Shown: in pieces, positions 8,258 through 18,466 of the stretch
Layout of the letters: each line of letters opens with the position of its first letter
How positions within the stretch are numbered: the first letter of the stretch is position 1
Source of the DNA: a virus
Strand: one strand, 5' to 3'
DNA length: 24,828 nucleotides
Virus record (IMG/VR): IMGVR_UViG_3300030090_006221
Coordinates: 1-24,828 of that record
The notes under the pieces: model-generated
The model's database searches: none
Seen by the model: only the letters and a program-made list of their open reading frames with translations
What the model was told of the DNA's origin: nothing
Translations under genes and position numbers: made by a program

Positions 8258-11200
8258 TCATTGACCGGGAGGAAGAATTGGATCTGGTCTCTTCGTATCG
8301 TTTAAATCGTTTGGAACACTATCTCTTCGACAAGTTACTTGCATCACATGATTTTGTGAAGTTATAATGTGCGATGCTCCGGTCACCATCCATCTTCCTG
8401 CTTGTCGTTTGTCGGGAAAAACACTACCTTCGCCCGGATCAATATCAACGGTAATCACCTCTCCGGGCTTAAGTGAGAAGTCGCCCGGCAAAACTCCGTT
8501 TGCTTTTTGATATCCAAACTGAATCATTTGTGCCTCTCTTCTCAGAGGTGTTTCAATTGGTGTGTCCCAGAAGGTAGCGTAAGTTCTACTATGCTCTAAG
8601 TAATTAAGATACTCAGATCCTTGCTCCGGACAATTGCAACTATTTGGTGCAGTCGGATTCGAGAACAAACAACCCAAATATTCCTCACCGAGATTTTCTC
8701 GAATTAAATCACACTCGTTAATTTCAACCTCAAGTTCTTTTAGTTCTTGACAAGTTGGCTCTGTGAAATCTGCGGTTACTCCATCTGGTCCTTGTGCTGT
8801 CGCACCCTTTAATCTGTCTGGTCTTAAGTATTGTGCAGGACAATTGATATAAGGATCGTACTCCTCCAGTTCCTCTGGATCAGTCGGTCGTCGTGGAGCA
8901 AGGACAGGTCCATCGGGATTCGCACACTCATAATTGTTACAAATGTTATCTTGTTTAGCGTACACCACAAAAGTGCCACTAAAGTTACGAACGAGTTCAT
9001 GGTAGTAGTCCGTTCTTTCCAGTCCATCATCAAAAAGGAAAGTTGGTGACATCACACCATATTCACTTTCTCCACTGACATCATATCTCCATATCTCATC
9101 ATCAGAGTCACCCCTGAGTTCAGTGTTCCAAAGTTTCCACTCATAAGTTTCCCATGTTGGACCGAGGTATTGATCGGGTGAGAGTGTAAGAGACGATGTA
9201 ATGTAATCACCAATGCTATCTTCGCTTTGATCGGGAGTTAATTCAGGAAAATCAGCGCCGGGTGGCACTCGTATTCCACTGTAATAGTAATCCCACCAGT
9301 AAACATAATTTGGATCTCTTGAGGCAAAATATTCCTCAGTGTTGCCTGATCGAAGGAGACTCTTTTCAAAATCATCGTACATGACAGCGGCAATCGGTGG
9401 TGTATTAAATTTACTAATATTAAACCAGTCGTCCTCTGGTGCTTGCCAAGAGTTGGGTAATCTGCCAAAGGTTCTGTGATTCATGCCAACGTTATTAGCG
9501 GATGGGACTCGATACCATGTGGTTAAGTAATCATTATACGCATGATTTTTTAAATACTCTGATGGGAAAAATGAGGATCTGACTGTTCCAAACGGGGATC
9601 TTTCTCCTCGATAATTTCTTGTGTTGGTATCAGTTCGTGTTGCGGCAATATCAAAGCCATATGGATCAACTCCAATAACACTGATGTTAAAGGATGAAGA
9701 GTGTCGTCCAAATGGACCGGGTGTCACCTGAACAAGATATGGAAGATAATACTCAATACCCGCATCACGAATATAACCATAGGGAAACTCTTCTAATGTT
9801 TCTAATCCAATTGGCTCATTAAATTCAATACGAATGTAGTGTTGATTTTCTTGCATAAATCGAACTGGAGATTGATAATCAATAAAGACTTCATTTAAGT
9901 CAGTCTCTGCTGGAACATACCAGTTCATAGCGTTTGAATACAACTCTATTAAATTGTTTGGATCACCACAATCATACACTTCACAATAATCAAATATGCC
10001 CGGATCAAATTGATATAGAAATCCACCGTAGCGAGTTCGATTATAGTAACTTCCCAAGGCATTGTAGCCGACTAAATTATGTTGTATTTGTCCATCCGGA
10101 TAGTGAACAATTCTTTCATAACCAGTTCCTTCACCGACAATTTCTTTGGTGCTTGGAGCAATCGTTGTCTGATTTACAACAAACGTTCCTAAAGACTGCC
10201 ACCAATACCAACCATATCCCCACCAAGGTCCACCATAGTATCCACCATAGTATCTAAAACCATTGTAACCATAGTAAAAACCGTTGCCGGAATAATTATT
10301 TGAATAATAGAATAGAGACTGTTTATCCACAACATAACGAGTTGAAGTAACAGGCACATTTCCCACATCACCTATTTGAGTAGGACCGGGGTATGCTCTC
10401 TGAGTGGTTATATTTCTCTCGTGGTGTCCCTCAGTTAGAACAACACTATTATCAGAAATAAAACCATCGTTAACACCATCAATTGGAGTGTATTGTATTT
10501 CACCTGTTCCAAATTCACCGATGGTTGTATTTACGGACTGATCATAATATGGATGTAGTCCTAGTCCGAGATAAGTCATACCCTCATCATCTTCAACTCG
10601 GCCGCCAAATTCACCATAATCAACCAGATATTCGTAAGCGTCCTCTATGTCATCAACAAGTGATCTGTTAACAGCAAACACCTCATATCGAGATCCTCTA
10701 ATTTTCTTTCTTTTTATACTCTTAACATTTTGGAAAGTGAGGGGCAAATTTCCCGGTATTTCAAGGTATTCTTCTTTTGCTTTCTTAAAAACTTTTCTCT
10801 TGATCCAAGAGTCATATGCTGACAAGAAAGTTTCTTTGTATTGAACCAACAAGTCTCTCAAGTTACCATAGTAATTTAAAATATACGATCCTCTTGATAA
10901 AATACAAGTCGGTCTTGTTGTATCTACTATGACAGAAATATTATAGGAACACTCTGGGCCGTAATCGCCGGGAGGTGCTGGTCCGTTACATTCATTTTTA
11001 AAGTAATAGCAACCTTCACAGGGCCATTGTGTATAACCACCATAACCTAATGGTCCCCTGTAGTTTTGCACCCCACTAGAATATCCACCGTACCCATAAC
11101 CATAGTAATAGTAATAATACGCACTACCAATAACTGGGGACCACCAAGTGCTGTAGCCGGGATAATATCCTAAAGGAGCAGAGTATGTTGTTCTATCCGG

Positions 11201-13000
11201 TTGAGTCTCTGGACCTGTCCAGTGATCAAAGAATGGTGGTGATGGGTTTGAGGAGCAAAAGTTAATTGCCTCGGATGTTTTGTTAATCGCTTGCTCTGTA
11301 GCGTAAATTTGAGCGTCAATTTGAAAAAGAACAGCCTCAATATTATCTGGTCTTCTCAACTTAAGAAATTCTTCAAGACTCGCTTGCAAGTCTGGGTCAT
11401 TTTCAAAATCATAAGCGGGGTAGAGACCGTTTTCGTTTGCACTTTCTTCTTCAGGATCATAGTTAACAACGTCAGAAAAAGATCCAGCAGAAACTATTTG
11501 ATACCCAGTCTCCTCAAGACATGGACCTGTTGAGCCATCATTATATCCGACGAGACAACAAACAGAGCAACGATAGGCTGCCCATTTTTCTTTTAAGTCA
11601 CGCTTTCTCGCAAGTTCATCTCGTTTTTCTTTTAGAGTTTTTCTAATCTTTACAATTTCTTTCAGCAACTCTCCGGACAATTCAGTTTGATCGAACATTG
11701 ATTGCCACATTACATCTTCGTTATATGCAGCGGTGTTGCCAAGATGATTTTTATCACTCCGATATACTTCTGTCAGTGAATTTTGAGTGTGTCGAAGTCT
11801 TGTAACGGGATCATTATAGTATGACTCATCAAAGTATCCGTGTAAATTATCATAACGTCTGACGGGTATATCAGGCTCAAACTCAAACGTATCATCAACC
11901 AAAGAATAATCTTCGACGTGTCTAATTTTTTCAAATTCATCTTTGTAAGAGTATTGAACTTTACGATTTTTATGACTTCCATAAAAGGAGGTAAAATCTA
12001 AATATGGGTTTTCATAATCTGGATCAACACGAAGATACTCTGAAATGTAAGCACCAGAGTCCATGAACTTCAGGGGTGAAAACTCTTCTGAGACCTGAAA
12101 AGTTACGAAGGTGGTTGGGTCTTGTCTGCCAGTTAATGCGTCCACTTGATATATTCTTCCAGCACGCTCTGGTCCAAGTTCATTCACATCCTCTTCGAGT
12201 GTGACTTCATTGTTTGTATCTAAAATGCCTTCAATTGATCTAAAATTCCAACGATCCAAGTCTTGCCAGAATAGGAAGTTTACTGCATTTGGATTTGTGT
12301 CAGAAATAGAATTTTCTGCAAGGTAATTCATCAACTTAATAACAGGGACTTGCTGAACTGGTTTTCTGAATGGATAAAAGTTCGTATTTTTCTTCAACCA
12401 AACTGAATTTCCAGTGGGTTCAATAAACATATCCTCTTGATTTGAGTTTACCACTTCGCCTGATTGATCACCTGCGCCGGGATTAAAAAATCTATCAGCA
12501 AGCGAATTAACCAATCCTTGGTTTTCTCCAGTGACTCCTCCCGTTGCTATTTTTTTAACTATATCATCACCATCTTCAAATATGACTGGCTCAGTGTAAT
12601 TAAAATATAAATTTTCGTATCCAGTAAATTCTATAGACCAAAAAGTAGGCTTTGTTGAATTTTGTATTCTAGGATCCGCTTGATCATTTGATGGTATAAC
12701 CTTTGAAATATAAAATCTAAAGGTTTTTATATTTTGATCAACGTCAATGGAGTTACTTCTTAAAACAACCTCTAAAATCTCACCACCGATTAACGGAAGA
12801 TTTTGTCCCATATTACCAGAGTCTTTAAATAATAAAGTACCATGCACACCGGCAGAAAACATATCTTCGTTTATGGTCATTGACTGAAATATCGAAGTTG
12901 CATTTTCTGGATCTATTAAATCAATAGAGTTACCGTTTTTACTTACTATAGTCGCTTTTAGTAAAGTTAGTCCCTCAAAAGACGCTGTTGTTTCACTCAT
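8258..13000 (-). CDS. Giant gp27-like baseplate hub protein
   Basis: This 1580-residue protein is about four times the length of T4 gp27 (391). The first ~330 residues look like a hub N-terminal domain: a strand-rich start, DMFSAGVHGTLLFKDSGNM, LPLIGGEILEVVLRS and a FWSIEFTGYE segment. The last ~110 residues look like a hub end: QKANGVLPGDFSLKPGEVI, AGRWMVTGASHIIT and MQVTCRRD. Between them lies about 1,000 residues of extra sequence: a charged coiled coil (KEIVKIRKTLKEKRDELARK, about 445-465), two Tyr/Gly/Trp-rich patches (about 611-663 and 897-937) and many Cys pairs (for example CSVCC and CEGC). I saw no lysozyme or OB-fold like that of T4 gp5. AGAGGA nine bases upstream, inside the last codons of gp53, is the ribosome binding site. 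Hub identity is supported by both ends and by position between gp53 and gp25; the middle is unassigned. Confidence 0.8.
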   Translation of the reverse strand: MSETTASFEGLTLLKATIVSKNGNSIDLIDPENATSIFQSMTINEDMFSAGVHGTLLFKDSGNMGQNLPLIGGEILEVVLRSNSIDVDQNIKTFRFYISKVIPSNDQADPRIQNSTKPTFWSIEFTGYENLYFNYTEPVIFEDGDDIVKKIATGGVTGENQGLVNSLADRFFNPGAGDQSGEVVNSNQEDMFIEPTGNSVWLKKNTNFYPFRKPVQQVPVIKLMNYLAENSISDTNPNAVNFLFWQDLDRWNFRSIEGILDTNNEVTLEEDVNELGPERAGRIYQVDALTGRQDPTTFVTFQVSEEFSPLKFMDSGAYISEYLRVDPDYENPYLDFTSFYGSHKNRKVQYSYKDEFEKIRHVEDYSLVDDTFEFEPDIPVRRYDNLHGYFDESYYNDPVTRLRHTQNSLTEVYRSDKNHLGNTAAYNEDVMWQSMFDQTELSGELLKEIVKIRKTLKEKRDELARKRDLKEKWAAYRCSVCCLVGYNDGSTGPCLEETGYQIVSAGSFSDVVNYDPEEESANENGLYPAYDFENDPDLQASLEEFLKLRRPDNIEAVLFQIDAQIYATEQAINKTSEAINFCSSNPSPPFFDHWTGPETQPDRTTYSAPLGYYPGYSTWWSPVIGSAYYYYYYGYGYGGYSSGVQNYRGPLGYGGYTQWPCEGCYYFKNECNGPAPPGDYGPECSYNISVIVDTTRPTCILSRGSYILNYYGNLRDLLVQYKETFLSAYDSWIKRKVFKKAKEEYLEIPGNLPLTFQNVKSIKRKKIRGSRYEVFAVNRSLVDDIEDAYEYLVDYGEFGGRVEDDEGMTYLGLGLHPYYDQSVNTTIGEFGTGEIQYTPIDGVNDGFISDNSVVLTEGHHERNITTQRAYPGPTQIGDVGNVPVTSTRYVVDKQSLFYYSNNYSGNGFYYGYNGFRYYGGYYGGPWWGYGWYWWQSLGTFVVNQTTIAPSTKEIVGEGTGYERIVHYPDGQIQHNLVGYNALGSYYNRTRYGGFLYQFDPGIFDYCEVYDCGDPNNLIELYSNAMNWYVPAETDLNEVFIDYQSPVRFMQENQHYIRIEFNEPIGLETLEEFPYGYIRDAGIEYYLPYLVQVTPGPFGRHSSSFNISVIGVDPYGFDIAATRTDTNTRNYRGERSPFGTVRSSFFPSEYLKNHAYNDYLTTWYRVPSANNVGMNHRTFGRLPNSWQAPEDDWFNISKFNTPPIAAVMYDDFEKSLLRSGNTEEYFASRDPNYVYWWDYYYSGIRVPPGADFPELTPDQSEDSIGDYITSSLTLSPDQYLGPTWETYEWKLWNTELRGDSDDEIWRYDVSGESEYGVMSPTFLFDDGLERTDYYHELVRNFSGTFVVYAKQDNICNNYECANPDGPVLAPRRPTDPEELEEYDPYINCPAQYLRPDRLKGATAQGPDGVTADFTEPTCQELKELEVEINECDLIRENLGEEYLGCLFSNPTAPNSCNCPEQGSEYLNYLEHSRTYATFWDTPIETPLRREAQMIQFGYQKANGVLPGDFSLKPGEVITVDIDPGEGSVFPDKRQAGRWMVTGASHIITSQNHVMQVTCRRDSVPNDLNDTKRPDPILPPGQ

Positions 13001-14906: not shown

Positions 14907-15338
14907 ATGGCATATAAAACAAGATATAAACCAGTAAATGAGTCTAAGTATGTAGGTGATCCAACAAACGTTATTTGTAGATCGTTGTGGGAAAGAAAAG
15001 TCTGCAAATACATGGATACAAACGAAAATATATTAAGGTGGGGAAGTGAGGAACTCGCAATCCCATACGTTTCTCCTCTTGACAATAAAGTTCATCGGTA
15101 TTTTCCGGATTTCATAGCCGAAATTAAAACAGAGACGGGTGAAGTTAAGACGAAGGTAATTGAGGTTAAGCCTTACAAGCAAACTCAAGAACCAGAGCGA
15201 GGAAAAAAACGAAAAGCCACATTTATCAATGAGTGTGCTACATATAGTGTAAATCAAGCAAAATGGAAAGCAGCAAAAACATTTTGCGAGAAGCGGGGAT
15301 GGAAATTTACGGTACTAACTGAGAAAGAGTTGTTCTAA
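14907..15338 (+). CDS. 4: Head completion protein gp4 (gp50/65), nuclease-like fold
   Basis: This 143-residue protein is close to the 150 of T4 gp4 and very similar to it along its length: KYKPVNE-type start, RSLWERKV (26-32), WGSEELAIPYVSPLDNKVHR (45-64), YFPDF (65-69), VIEVKPYKQTQ (84-94), then AKWKAAKTFCEKRGW and VLTEKEL. The arrangement Glu29, Asp68, Glu86-x-Lys88 looks like a PD-(D/E)xK nuclease core, so the protein may trim DNA ends, although T4 gp4 is known mainly for completing filled heads before tail joining. The ATG at 14907 is chosen over one 75 bases upstream because conservation starts here. No good ribosome binding site is visible; the only candidate bases are shared with the opposite-strand gp48 signal. 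The stop overlaps the next start (TAATG). Confidence 0.95.
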   Translation: MAYKTRYKPVNESKYVGDPTNVICRSLWERKVCKYMDTNENILRWGSEELAIPYVSPLDNKVHRYFPDFIAEIKTETGEVKTKVIEVKPYKQTQEPERGKKRKATFINECATYSVNQAKWKAAKTFCEKRGWKFTVLTEKELF

Positions 15339-15919
15339 TGCCACAAAGAAAACCAATTATCCCATCAACATCAGATGATCTGAGAGCGATTCTTGCATCA
15401 AAACAGGGATTGCAACGAACAACACGTTATGAAGTGTTCATCAGAAGTCCAAATGGTGTTTTACAGTGGCCTGCGTTGTCCGTCAGTTTGCCGGGAAGAA
15501 GCCTTGACGCTGTTCCCGATGATTTGCTGTCTCAAGGAGACAACAGAAGAACTATTCCAATCAAAAGAGGATACGGCGGTGAACCAAGTGTTCTTTTAGG
15601 ATTTTACATTGATTCAAATTGGGACATCAGAACGTTTTTTGAGGATTGGGCAGATAGATTCAACCCTCTGGGATACAATGATATTAACGATGTTCAAGCA
15701 AACACGTTGAACACAGGTAGTTATGAAAATTTGGTTGAAAACTCAGCAGTGGTCATCCGATTTTTTAACCTACAAGATGAAATTCAGTGGGAAATGTCCT
15801 TAATTGAACCATATATTTCCACGATTATACAAGAAACGTACAATGAAGAGCGATTGAATGAATTAGCGACTCTTACCGTTGCTATTGCATTTAAAGAATA
15901 CACCACAATTCAATATTAA
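15338..15919 (+). CDS. Tail-tube-fold protein, gp54/gp19 type
   Basis: This 193-residue protein has the alternating strand pattern of the tail-tube family: TTRYEVFI (28-35), WPALSVSLPGRSL (44-56), a strand ending GFYID (88-92), the helix WDIRTFFEDWADRF (94-107), then EIQWEMSLIEPYISTI and a final LTVAIAFKEY strand. In T4 the same fold serves the tube gp19 (163 residues) and the tube initiator gp54 (320 residues). Its position between gp4 and gp26, away from sheath and head genes, makes a tube initiator or tube-baseplate adaptor more likely than the major tube. The size is nearer gp19. The start overlaps the gp4 stop by one base, so it is translationally coupled. Confidence 0.72.
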   Translation: MPQRKPIIPSTSDDLRAILASKQGLQRTTRYEVFIRSPNGVLQWPALSVSLPGRSLDAVPDDLLSQGDNRRTIPIKRGYGGEPSVLLGFYIDSNWDIRTFFEDWADRFNPLGYNDINDVQANTLNTGSYENLVENSAVVIRFFNLQDEIQWEMSLIEPYISTIIQETYNEERLNELATLTVAIAFKEYTTIQY

Positions 15920-15931
15920 TATGGAGAAATT

Positions 15932-16627
15932 ATGAATTTATTAGAGAAAATACAACAATCTGTACCAAAACACCAAACCAAAATACCATCGTCTGGAAAA
16001 ATCACTTTTTTTCGACCATTTTTGATGCGAGAACAAAAAGTTTTACTTATAGCACAACAAGCAAATAAACATGCTGAATCGCTCAAGGCAGTTGCCACTG
16101 TTGTTGAGGCTTGTGTCGAGGATGTCGATAATGGATTAAACTTGTCCATGTGTGATCTGGAGTATCTTTTTGCTCAAATCAGAGCAAAATCTGTCTCAGA
16201 AAAAGCGGAGCCAATATTTACCTGTCCACACACAGGGGAAACAATTAAAACCGGAGTAAACTTGACGGAAATTAAAATTTCCAACCAAGAAGTCAAATCG
16301 GAGATTAAAGTGACTGACAAATTAAAAATAGTCATGAAATCACCCACGGTGAGAGATCACATATTAGCAGAGGGTGAGGACTGGTTTGATAAACTGATTT
16401 GTAATTGTATGTCTAAAATTATATTCGAGGATGAGTCCTTTGACGGATCCTCTATCTCAGACGAAGATAAAATGGAAATTATCAACACAATGACTCAACA
16501 TCAGTACGATTTGTGTTCTAAATTTATAGAAAACCAACCACACATTTACACAGACGTTAAATATAGAACTAAGGACGGAGAAATTAGAGAGATTACTTTC
16601 AAGGGACTAAAGGATTTTTTCAGTTAG
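15932..16627 (+). CDS. 26: Baseplate hub assembly protein gp26
   Basis: This 231-residue protein compares with 208 for T4 gp26. It has the family's start (FRPFLMREQKVLLIAQQ, 28-44), then AVATVVEACV and LEYLFAQIRAKSVSE (76-90), matching the LEYLF.QIRAKSVGE pattern of gp26-type proteins. A CPHTGE turn and a C-terminal helix-rich half follow. In T4, gp26 acts in assembly of the baseplate hub together with gp51. GGAGAAATT before the ATG is a good ribosome binding site. The gene ends in GAT-TTT-TTC-AGT-TAG, which contains a T-TTT-TTC slippery heptamer that would let some ribosomes continue in the -1 frame (see the extension entry). Confidence 0.88.
   Translation: MNLLEKIQQSVPKHQTKIPSSGKITFFRPFLMREQKVLLIAQQANKHAESLKAVATVVEACVEDVDNGLNLSMCDLEYLFAQIRAKSVSEKAEPIFTCPHTGETIKTGVNLTEIKISNQEVKSEIKVTDKLKIVMKSPTVRDHILAEGEDWFDKLICNCMSKIIFEDESFDGSSISDEDKMEIINTMTQHQYDLCSKFIENQPHIYTDVKYRTKDGEIREITFKGLKDFFS
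16601..16621 (+). promoter_or_regulatory. Probable -1 programmed frameshift site at end of gp26
   Basis: T-TTT-TTC (16615-16621) is a classic X-XXY-YYZ slippery heptamer, placed in the gp26 frame two codons before the stop. AAGGGA (16601-16606) lies eight bases upstream, where an internal Shine-Dalgarno can stimulate -1 slippage as in E. coli dnaX. A second purine run, AAAGGA, abuts the heptamer. I saw no convincing downstream hairpin. The -1 frame is open from the slip point to 16815. Confidence 0.7.
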
Positions 16628-16815
16628 CCCTTTGTCATGAGTCATTAAAATCTGTTGTGCAAACTAACTTTGATTTGTTTATTCACTTTAAAATGGGTTT
16701 GCAGGACTTGGATGGGATGATTCCGTGGGAAAGGGATGTTTACATAGAGTTAATTAAACAGCACGTTGAAGAGGAAAACAAAAAGATAAGGGAACAGCAG
16801 ATTGCAGGACGATAA
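16621..16815 (+). CDS. gp26 frameshift extension, 64 residues in the -1 frame
   Basis: After a -1 slip on T-TTT-TTC the frame continues CAG-TTA-GCC and adds 64 residues, giving a gp26 fusion of about 294 residues. The extension begins QLALCHESLKSVVQTNF and includes LQDLDGMIPWERDVYIELIK and a charged C-terminal helix. It looks like the short helical protein that, as I remember, follows gp26 in many T4-like phages (HESL...Y...F...L...MLPWERD.Y), sometimes called gp51-like. No ATG, and no GTG or TTG with a ribosome binding site, exists before the CHESL block. The first in-frame GTG (16657) and ATG (16693) would cut into it. Frameshifting is therefore the simplest way to translate it. By analogy with lambda G/GT, the two products could act as a chaperone pair; that is inference. 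Confidence 0.72.
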   Translation, partial: QLALCHESLKSVVQTNFDLFIHFKMGLQDLDGMIPWERDVYIELIKQHVEEENKKIREQQIAGR

Positions 16816-18466
16816 AGATTTCAACAAAGATGGCACGGTTTCAAGTGCCGAAGTTAAGTTTGATAACTTGCTTCGGGATGTTTTTGTTGATACTGATGGT
16901 AACTATGATAAAGAGATGGCAGATCAGGCTGTTGCAGAACTTAGACAAATAGCACAAAATCCAATACTTAATACCGCTCAGGCTGCGGAAGCCTTCGTTG
17001 AAAATTATGGATTAGAAGAAAGTGACATAAGACCTGTTTCAAATGTTTTTAGTGAACTCCGAAAGAGTCACACAGACAGTCTTAGTCCAACGGAAATGGC
17101 ATCGTTTCAGTCAGAATTTGAAGCGAATCAAAAAAGTATAAAAGATGCTGAAAGAATGCTTGAGAGTGCGATCCTTGAATCGGATATGCAAGCAGATTTG
17201 ACCTTTGAAGAAAATATGAGATCCGCTATGGGTGTTACCTATGATGCCACTAAGCCCATGCGAGATCATATGGCTGGTGTTAAAAAATCTAGAGGAAGAA
17301 GCGGTAGACTTGCTTCGAGATCGGAACGGACAAGGAGCCCATCGTTCTATGGCTATCAAACTCAAGGTGGATCTAGAATTCCAAAACCAGAAAAACCCGA
17401 AACAGAAAGAAAAAAAACAGGTTCTTCAAAATCAAAAAAATCTAAAAAATCCTCAAGTGAATCAGATTCAACTGCAACACGAGTAATAGATTACGCAGGA
17501 ATGATTCTTAATGTGAGAACTCCTGCAACAAAAGGCCCACACTCTGAATCATACTATAGTGATAACGGAGTGGCAGCGAGATTTTATGGTCGAGGAGTTT
17601 TTGTAGACAGAAACCGTGATGGAAAAATTACCGAAAAAGAACGAGCAGAGGCAAGAGCAATCGCAAATTCTGGGGCACTTGATCCCATCACATTTGAACA
17701 TGATAAAAAAGAGATGTTAGATAGAAGTCTTAAAAGACAACAAACACTTAAATTAGATCCCAAGACTTACAACATAGGTGGTATTTTAGTGGACGCAAAC
17801 GGTGATGGTATTATCTCTCTTATCGAAGAAGAGGAAGCGAAAAAGCAAGCACTACAAAATAATATCGCTAATGTAATTGCATCCAGAGAACAAGATAAGG
17901 CAGAAAGATCTCTTTACGGTGGAATGACACGAGAAGATGCGGTCAGACGCTTTGGTGAAGACTTAGTTTTAGAAAGAGAGCAGGCAGCGTTAGAAGGACC
18001 TTTGGGTGATTATTATGCTCCCACTATTAAAGCAGCAACAGAAGGTGGGATTGACCCGGAAACAAAAGAAACAATTCCAAGAGATCGCAGTGCCAGTTTT
18101 GGTGGATCTGCTTATGACATTCCACGGGGAACAAATACTCCCAGCGAATCCCCAAGTCAAATTAGTTCACCAACAGCAACAATGACTCTCGAATCAGCGA
18201 TACAAAATGCACCAGAGGGTGGGGGAAGAGTCCCCGGTGGAATTGATGTTGCTCCACGATCACCACAATTTGCTCCAGCCGGAGCAACTGACATACCCAG
18301 ACGAATGCCAGCAGGTAATCAATTAGCAGCATTGGGTGGAGGTGCTGGTGGTGGTGGATTCGGTGTCAAAAGAGGACAATCACCCGCAAGTGTTTCCTCT
18401 GGAGAATTTAGATCAATGAAAAGAGAAATGCAAACTTTACCTAATTGGAGAACAGTGGTTGGATAA
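16802..18466 (+). CDS. EF-hand-containing protein, probably virion or tail assembly
   Basis: This 554-residue protein starts at TTG (16802), inside the end of the gp26 frameshift frame. AGGGA lies about eight bases upstream, an in-frame stop lies at 16787, and the first ATG (16916) would remove the first motif. It has three textbook EF-hand loops: DFNKDGTVSSAE (6-17), DRNRDGKITEKE (269-280) and DANGDGIISLIE (331-342). A degenerate fourth, DTDGNYDKEMAD, begins at residue 30. Residues 40-160 look helical, and 163-225 are a disordered Arg/Ser/Lys-rich linker. The C-terminal ~150 residues are Pro/Gly/Ser-rich and end in SMKREMQTLPNWRTVVG. Its place after gp26 suggests a structural or assembly role. 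T4 gp29, the tape measure, has a similar length (590) and neighbourhood, but the low-complexity middle and calcium loops do not look like a tape measure. Function unknown. Confidence 0.75.
   Translation: MQDDKDFNKDGTVSSAEVKFDNLLRDVFVDTDGNYDKEMADQAVAELRQIAQNPILNTAQAAEAFVENYGLEESDIRPVSNVFSELRKSHTDSLSPTEMASFQSEFEANQKSIKDAERMLESAILESDMQADLTFEENMRSAMGVTYDATKPMRDHMAGVKKSRGRSGRLASRSERTRSPSFYGYQTQGGSRIPKPEKPETERKKTGSSKSKKSKKSSSESDSTATRVIDYAGMILNVRTPATKGPHSESYYSDNGVAARFYGRGVFVDRNRDGKITEKERAEARAIANSGALDPITFEHDKKEMLDRSLKRQQTLKLDPKTYNIGGILVDANGDGIISLIEEEEAKKQALQNNIANVIASREQDKAERSLYGGMTREDAVRRFGEDLVLEREQAALEGPLGDYYAPTIKAATEGGIDPETKETIPRDRSASFGGSAYDIPRGTNTPSESPSQISSPTATMTLESAIQNAPEGGGRVPGGIDVAPRSPQFAPAGATDIPRRMPAGNQLAALGGGAGGGGFGVKRGQSPASVSSGEFRSMKREMQTLPNWRTVVG

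Follow-up and report, generated by a model that had tools for sequence, protein, structure and literature searches.

Phage lambda makes a short tail assembly chaperone, gpG, together with a minor long form, gpGT, through a -1 frameshift on the heptamer GGGAAAG. The two are encoded between the tail tube and the tape measure, and neither product is found in virions (PMC5009743); the same 2016 review describes G-T frameshifting as conserved in long-tailed phages "except T4." T4 gp26 and gp51 have been listed among the hub assembly chaperones (PMC3004832). The chaperone genes of T4-like phages were identified by Vladimirov, Gautam, and Davidson (Virology 2022, doi 10.1016/j.virol.2021.11.003), a study credited, in the passages of two later papers that cite it, with the poly-T signals for slippage in the TAC-N genes of T4-like phages (PMC12846349) and with the finding that some of these phages have, in place of the slip, a short gene and a separate long one (PMC10885494). 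For the Vandenendeviridae and Andersonviridae, the relevant passage of PMC12846349 likewise describes TAC-N being extended in the -1 frame close to a poly-T run, with the added part wrongly annotated as a hypothetical gene.

The locus studied here lies in a 24,828-nucleotide stretch of DNA (the window), IMG/VR record IMGVR_UViG_3300030090_006221, from an uncultivated T4-like phage. The abstract of the 2022 study reportedly names genes 26 and 51 and states that several T4-like groups retain frameshifting. The original prediction of a slip at the end of gp26 in the window had left undecided whether such an event was already described in T4-like phages; it was, in 2022, as the citing passages of PMC12846349 and PMC10885494 indicate, and the frameshift as a novelty of T4-like phages is thereby ruled out. 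As far as those passages describe them, the published T4-like TAC-N/TAC-NC genes and the gene in the window are of the same kind, with the same -1 poly-T slip and the same two-gene alternative, and the window differs only as another, uncultivated member. The motif GTTTTT given for the Vandenendeviridae and Andersonviridae in the same passage differs from the full T_TTT_TTN found here. Compared with lambda, the arrangement of a short chaperone and a minor -1 long form is shared, whereas the heptamer here is U_UUU_UUC, a putative Shine-Dalgarno (SD)-like stimulator is added, and no sequence homology was detected.

The 3' end of gp26 reads AAG GGA CTA AAG GAT TTT TTC AGT TAG, with the heptamer in the phase T (16615), TTT (16616 to 16618), and TTC (16619 to 16621), followed by AGT and the stop codon TAG (16625 to 16627) (Table 1). 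The AAGGGA element precedes the heptamer by 8 nucleotides. The -1 frame is open from 16588 to 16815, with its TAA at 16813 to 16815, and a -1 slip would add 64 codons (QLALCHESL...IAGR) to give a fusion of 294 amino acids. The in-frame heptamer had been predicted and was confirmed base for base, and the upstream element and the 64-codon open frame were found where they had been proposed. The further claim, that no usable start precedes the conserved part of the extension, also holds: the earliest ATG, GTG, or TTG is a GTG at 16657, which is 12 codons past the slip site (codon 13), lies within the conserved part, and is replaced by GTT in the close relative L001.

Table 1. Coordinates of the frameshift locus and its neighbors in the window
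Feature	Coordinates	Strand	Basis
Tail-tube-like gene (gp54/gp19 family), upstream	15338..15919	+	PHROG 45 tail tube, E 1.7e-5
gp26 / TAC-N, short form, zero frame	15932..16627	+	231 aa; ORF list, PF12322, PHROG 150, AlphaFold2 model
Shine-Dalgarno-like element AAGGGA	16601..16606	+	Sequence; family-wide anti-SD peak at -12 and GAG excess; window dG -4.3, modest
Slippery heptamer T_TTT_TTC	16615..16621	+	Sequence; TTTTTT invariant in 81/81 non-redundant relatives
-1 frame extension, gp51-like C-terminal domain, TAC-C	16621..16815	+	64 codons + TAA; PHROG 634, E 1.4e-19; L001 identity
Zero-frame stop TAG, one codon past slip site	16625..16627	+	Sequence
Next ORF, 554 aa, usual tape-measure position (putative)	16802..18466	+	ORF list; three EF-hand loops

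A tblastn search of 50,697 phage records with the fused 294-aa protein (E ≤ 1e-5) returned 515 matches, 486 of them with at least 80% query coverage, and among the matches listed nearly all of the well-covered ones consist of two joined pieces, as expected of a frame change. Related loci were collected from IMG/VR and phage records. Both gp26 and the extension are carried by 103 of them, which became 102 after removal of one duplicate of the window and 81 non-redundant loci after collapsing at 80% identity. The comparison of gp26 loci suggested with the original prediction found that cyanophages, pelagiphages, KVP40, Aeh1, and others keep both the heptamer and a -1 frame that is open and conserved at the protein level. 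The extension lies in the -1 frame behind T_TTT_TTN (last base C, T, A, or G) in 103/103 loci, and the six T are invariant in all 81 non-redundant loci (P of about 1e-29 from codon usage given the amino acids, uncorrected for relatedness). Mendera keeps TTT at the slip site though this codon makes up only 16% of its Phe codons. As a control, 298 ends of other ORFs from these loci were checked: T_TTT_TTN occurs within the last 12 codons in 2, and in none is it accompanied by a -1 frame that stays open for at least 40 codons. The same site is present in phages of Prochlorococcus, Synechococcus, Pelagibacter, and Methylophilales, and in KVP40, D479, PX29, Aeh1, VmeM-32, phiM7, Ochrobactrum OC, Cr30, DLP6, Mendera, and ACP17.

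The gp26 of the window matches the Pfam family T4_baseplate (PF12322; E 3.5e-45) and PHROG 150 (1.4e-54), and the extension matches PHROG 634, "baseplate hub assembly catalyst," that is, gp51 (E 1.4e-19). T4 gp51 itself matches PF12322 over residues 1 to 201 (4e-52) and PHROG 150 end to end, and its residues 147 to 246 match PHROG 634, the same profile as the extension. T4 gp26 matches PF12322 (9e-64) and has neither the extension nor the slip site. These profile matches make T4 gp26 the short and gp51 the long member of a paralogous pair, so that T-even phages make both forms from separate genes. Since T4 gp51 equals a gp26 domain plus the same extension, the extension stands in the place of a separate gp51, as had been proposed. 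An unrooted tree of 33 gp26 domains, with long branches for the gp26 of RB43 (g26_RB43) and Aer31 (g26_Aer31), places the T-even rows for 26 and 51 together on the same side of one branch (96/94) and the T-even gp51 rows in one group (99/97), a grouping consistent with a single duplication. Set against the frameshift found elsewhere, the two genes of T-even phages would be a clear instance of recoding traded for a duplicated gene. RB43 (L106, 1501 to 2794) has the long gp51 gene and the short gp26 gene in tandem on one strand, while the T4 arrangement is divergent.

Collectively, it is very probable that one message yields a tail assembly chaperone in two forms, gp26 being TAC-N and the -1 product TAC-NC, and that the phage of the window joins the group making its chaperone pair by frameshifting. 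That slippage occurs in the window, and with what efficiency, we infer from sequence, as we do the chaperone role of gp26 and the fusion. Most ribosomes would stop at TAG and release the 231-aa TAC-N, and a minority would shift one base backward at U_UUU_UUC and append the 64-residue gp51-like domain to give the 294-aa TAC-NC. By analogy with lambda gpG and gpGT, the short form may act as a coat on the tape-measure protein and the long one as a tether for the tail-tube subunit or the baseplate hub.

The principal alternative treats the extension as a small gene of its own, gp51, with translation beginning either independently or through coupling to termination at the gp26 stop codon. This is how most GenBank records annotate the extension, including gp51 of P-SSM2, PX29, and phiM7, and the KVP40 junction, also annotated as a separate gene, reads TAATG. 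However, D479, a close relative of KVP40, does not have the ATG. In 97/102 loci, the -1 frame contains no ATG, GTG, or TTG up to the slip site, leaving the conserved FFxIALSH block without a preceding start codon, and the frame opens no more than 9 nucleotides from the slip site in 25 loci. The first possible starts fall 1 to 32 codons inside the domain and are not conserved, and a separate gene would leave the invariant T6 run unexplained. We consider this alternative improbable. The -1 frame evolves as a protein under purifying selection: substitutions at codon positions 1:2:3 are distributed 33:16:50%, with position 3 the most variable across pairs, and the extensions of the window and L001 are 90% identical in amino acids and 78% in nucleotides (64% amino acid identity for gp26).

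These observations bear on existing annotation. The "gp51, baseplate hub assembly catalyst" of hundreds of cyanophage records is usually a -1 extension and not a gene. Cyanophage gp51 has been reported at only ∼20% of full length and gp51 as missing in Aeh1 (Sullivan et al. 2010, PMC3037559); the frameshift accounts both for cyanophage proteins some 200 residues too short and for the "missing" Aeh1 gp51. In several GenBank records (e.g., L013, L014, L019, and L115), the gp51-like extension is unannotated or given a late start, and part of the conserved domain is thereby lost from the annotation.

An SD-like element about 10 nucleotides upstream of the slip site is kept by synonymous codon choice. 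Pairing with the anti-SD sequence peaks sharply at -12 across the family (mean dG of -6.1 kcal/mol against a background of -0.2), and the codon before an invariant Gly is GAG in 33/43 cases, where the codon usage of each locus would predict 11.1 (z of 7.8), with GAG in 107/371 of the Glu-Gly pairs elsewhere. The element of the window is modest (dG of -4.3). Downstream of the heptamer, one cyanophage clade (13/81 loci) has a stem of 8 to 12 bp, 11 in most, starting about 5 nucleotides after the heptamer, and another 3/81 loci have a 9-bp stem 7 nucleotides past it. Covariation lends the clade hairpin slight support, since it consists of just one covarying pair in two sequences, and RNAalifold found no common RNA structure over all 81 sequences. 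In Escherichia coli dnaX, an SD-like element lies about 10 nucleotides upstream of the slip site, and a hairpin follows downstream. The spacing of the SD-like element here equals that of dnaX, and the hairpin 5 nucleotides downstream in the one cyanophage clade is a further likeness; in contrast to dnaX, the heptamer and product differ, and the hairpin is lineage specific.

The putative stimulators also weigh on transcriptional slippage, in which RNA polymerase would slip on the T run and leave a fraction of the mRNAs frame-shifted. The run comprises 6 to 8 T in all loci and reaches 8 T in 17/81, but 55/81 loci have just 6, fewer than the 8 to 9 usually needed for such slippage. The selected SD-like element about 10 nucleotides upstream and the one-clade hairpin 5 nucleotides downstream would be stimulators of ribosomes, and we regard slippage of the polymerase as slightly less probable still than a separate gene. 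None of the frameshift-type loci showed the two parts fused in frame at this position. That the T6 run and its FF reflect protein conservation only, the -1 frame being a remnant in decay or a frameshift introduced by sequencing, has a negligible chance of being correct: FF is strongly kept in the protein, but in 8/103 loci a Leu codon (TTA or TTG) takes the place of the second Phe codon with the six T retained, so that the nucleotides of the slip site are better kept than the amino acid, and independent phages have the identical junction to a -1 frame that is under purifying selection.

Several observations run against ribosomal frameshifting to a chaperone pair as the reading of this locus. 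The window's own clade has no conserved downstream RNA structure, and the window has neither hairpin type. The Ackermannviridae (L119 to L136, L110, and L113) retain a homologous -1 extension after gp26 without T_TTT_TTN; in ZQ1 it matches PHROG 634 (E 4e-4), and in the ZQ1 relatives examined the junction is ATT TTC ATY TAA. Junctions in this family have TAATG in some members and TAATT in others, and the start is thus not conserved; a reading of their extension as a separate ORF starting at TAATG was withdrawn because of the members with TAATT. Tentatively, we suggest that the T4-like frameshift is tuned by a selected SD-like element together with lineage-specific hairpins 5 to 7 nucleotides downstream, and that the Ackermannviridae imply a further decoding route. 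Both the putative stimulators, SD-like and hairpin, and the junctions of the Ackermannviridae may add to the published work, and the stimulator data provide testable targets.

The AlphaFold2 model of gp26 has a mean pLDDT of 96.1, and among PDB folds the HK97 tail assembly chaperone 2ob9 ranks first, a suggestive match that falls below significance (E 0.17, probability 0.80, TM 0.19/0.39) and to that extent also counts against the chaperone reading. Searching PDB sequences with the alignment of the fusion gave nothing of note. The order of tail tube, TAC, and large ORF fits the canonical lambda-like order, with the large ORF as a putative tape measure; in Cr30, a large ORF just downstream is annotated as tape measure. 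A comparison of the downstream ORFs with T4 gp29 found no homology, a further point against this reading.

Elsewhere in the window, positions 8258 to 13000 on the minus strand encode a Tyr/Gly-rich protein of 1,580 aa that has no Pfam match and adjoins gp25 and gp53, in the place expected of a hub gene. The ORF directly after the extension contains canonical EF-hand calcium-binding loops, three of them in the window. The EF-hand motif was seen in L001, L002, L004, L007, L008, L017, L024, L028, L037, L070, L089, and L099, and in several relatives it occurs in a separate small protein of 84 to 139 aa, at least some of which have a hydrophobic, membrane-like stretch.
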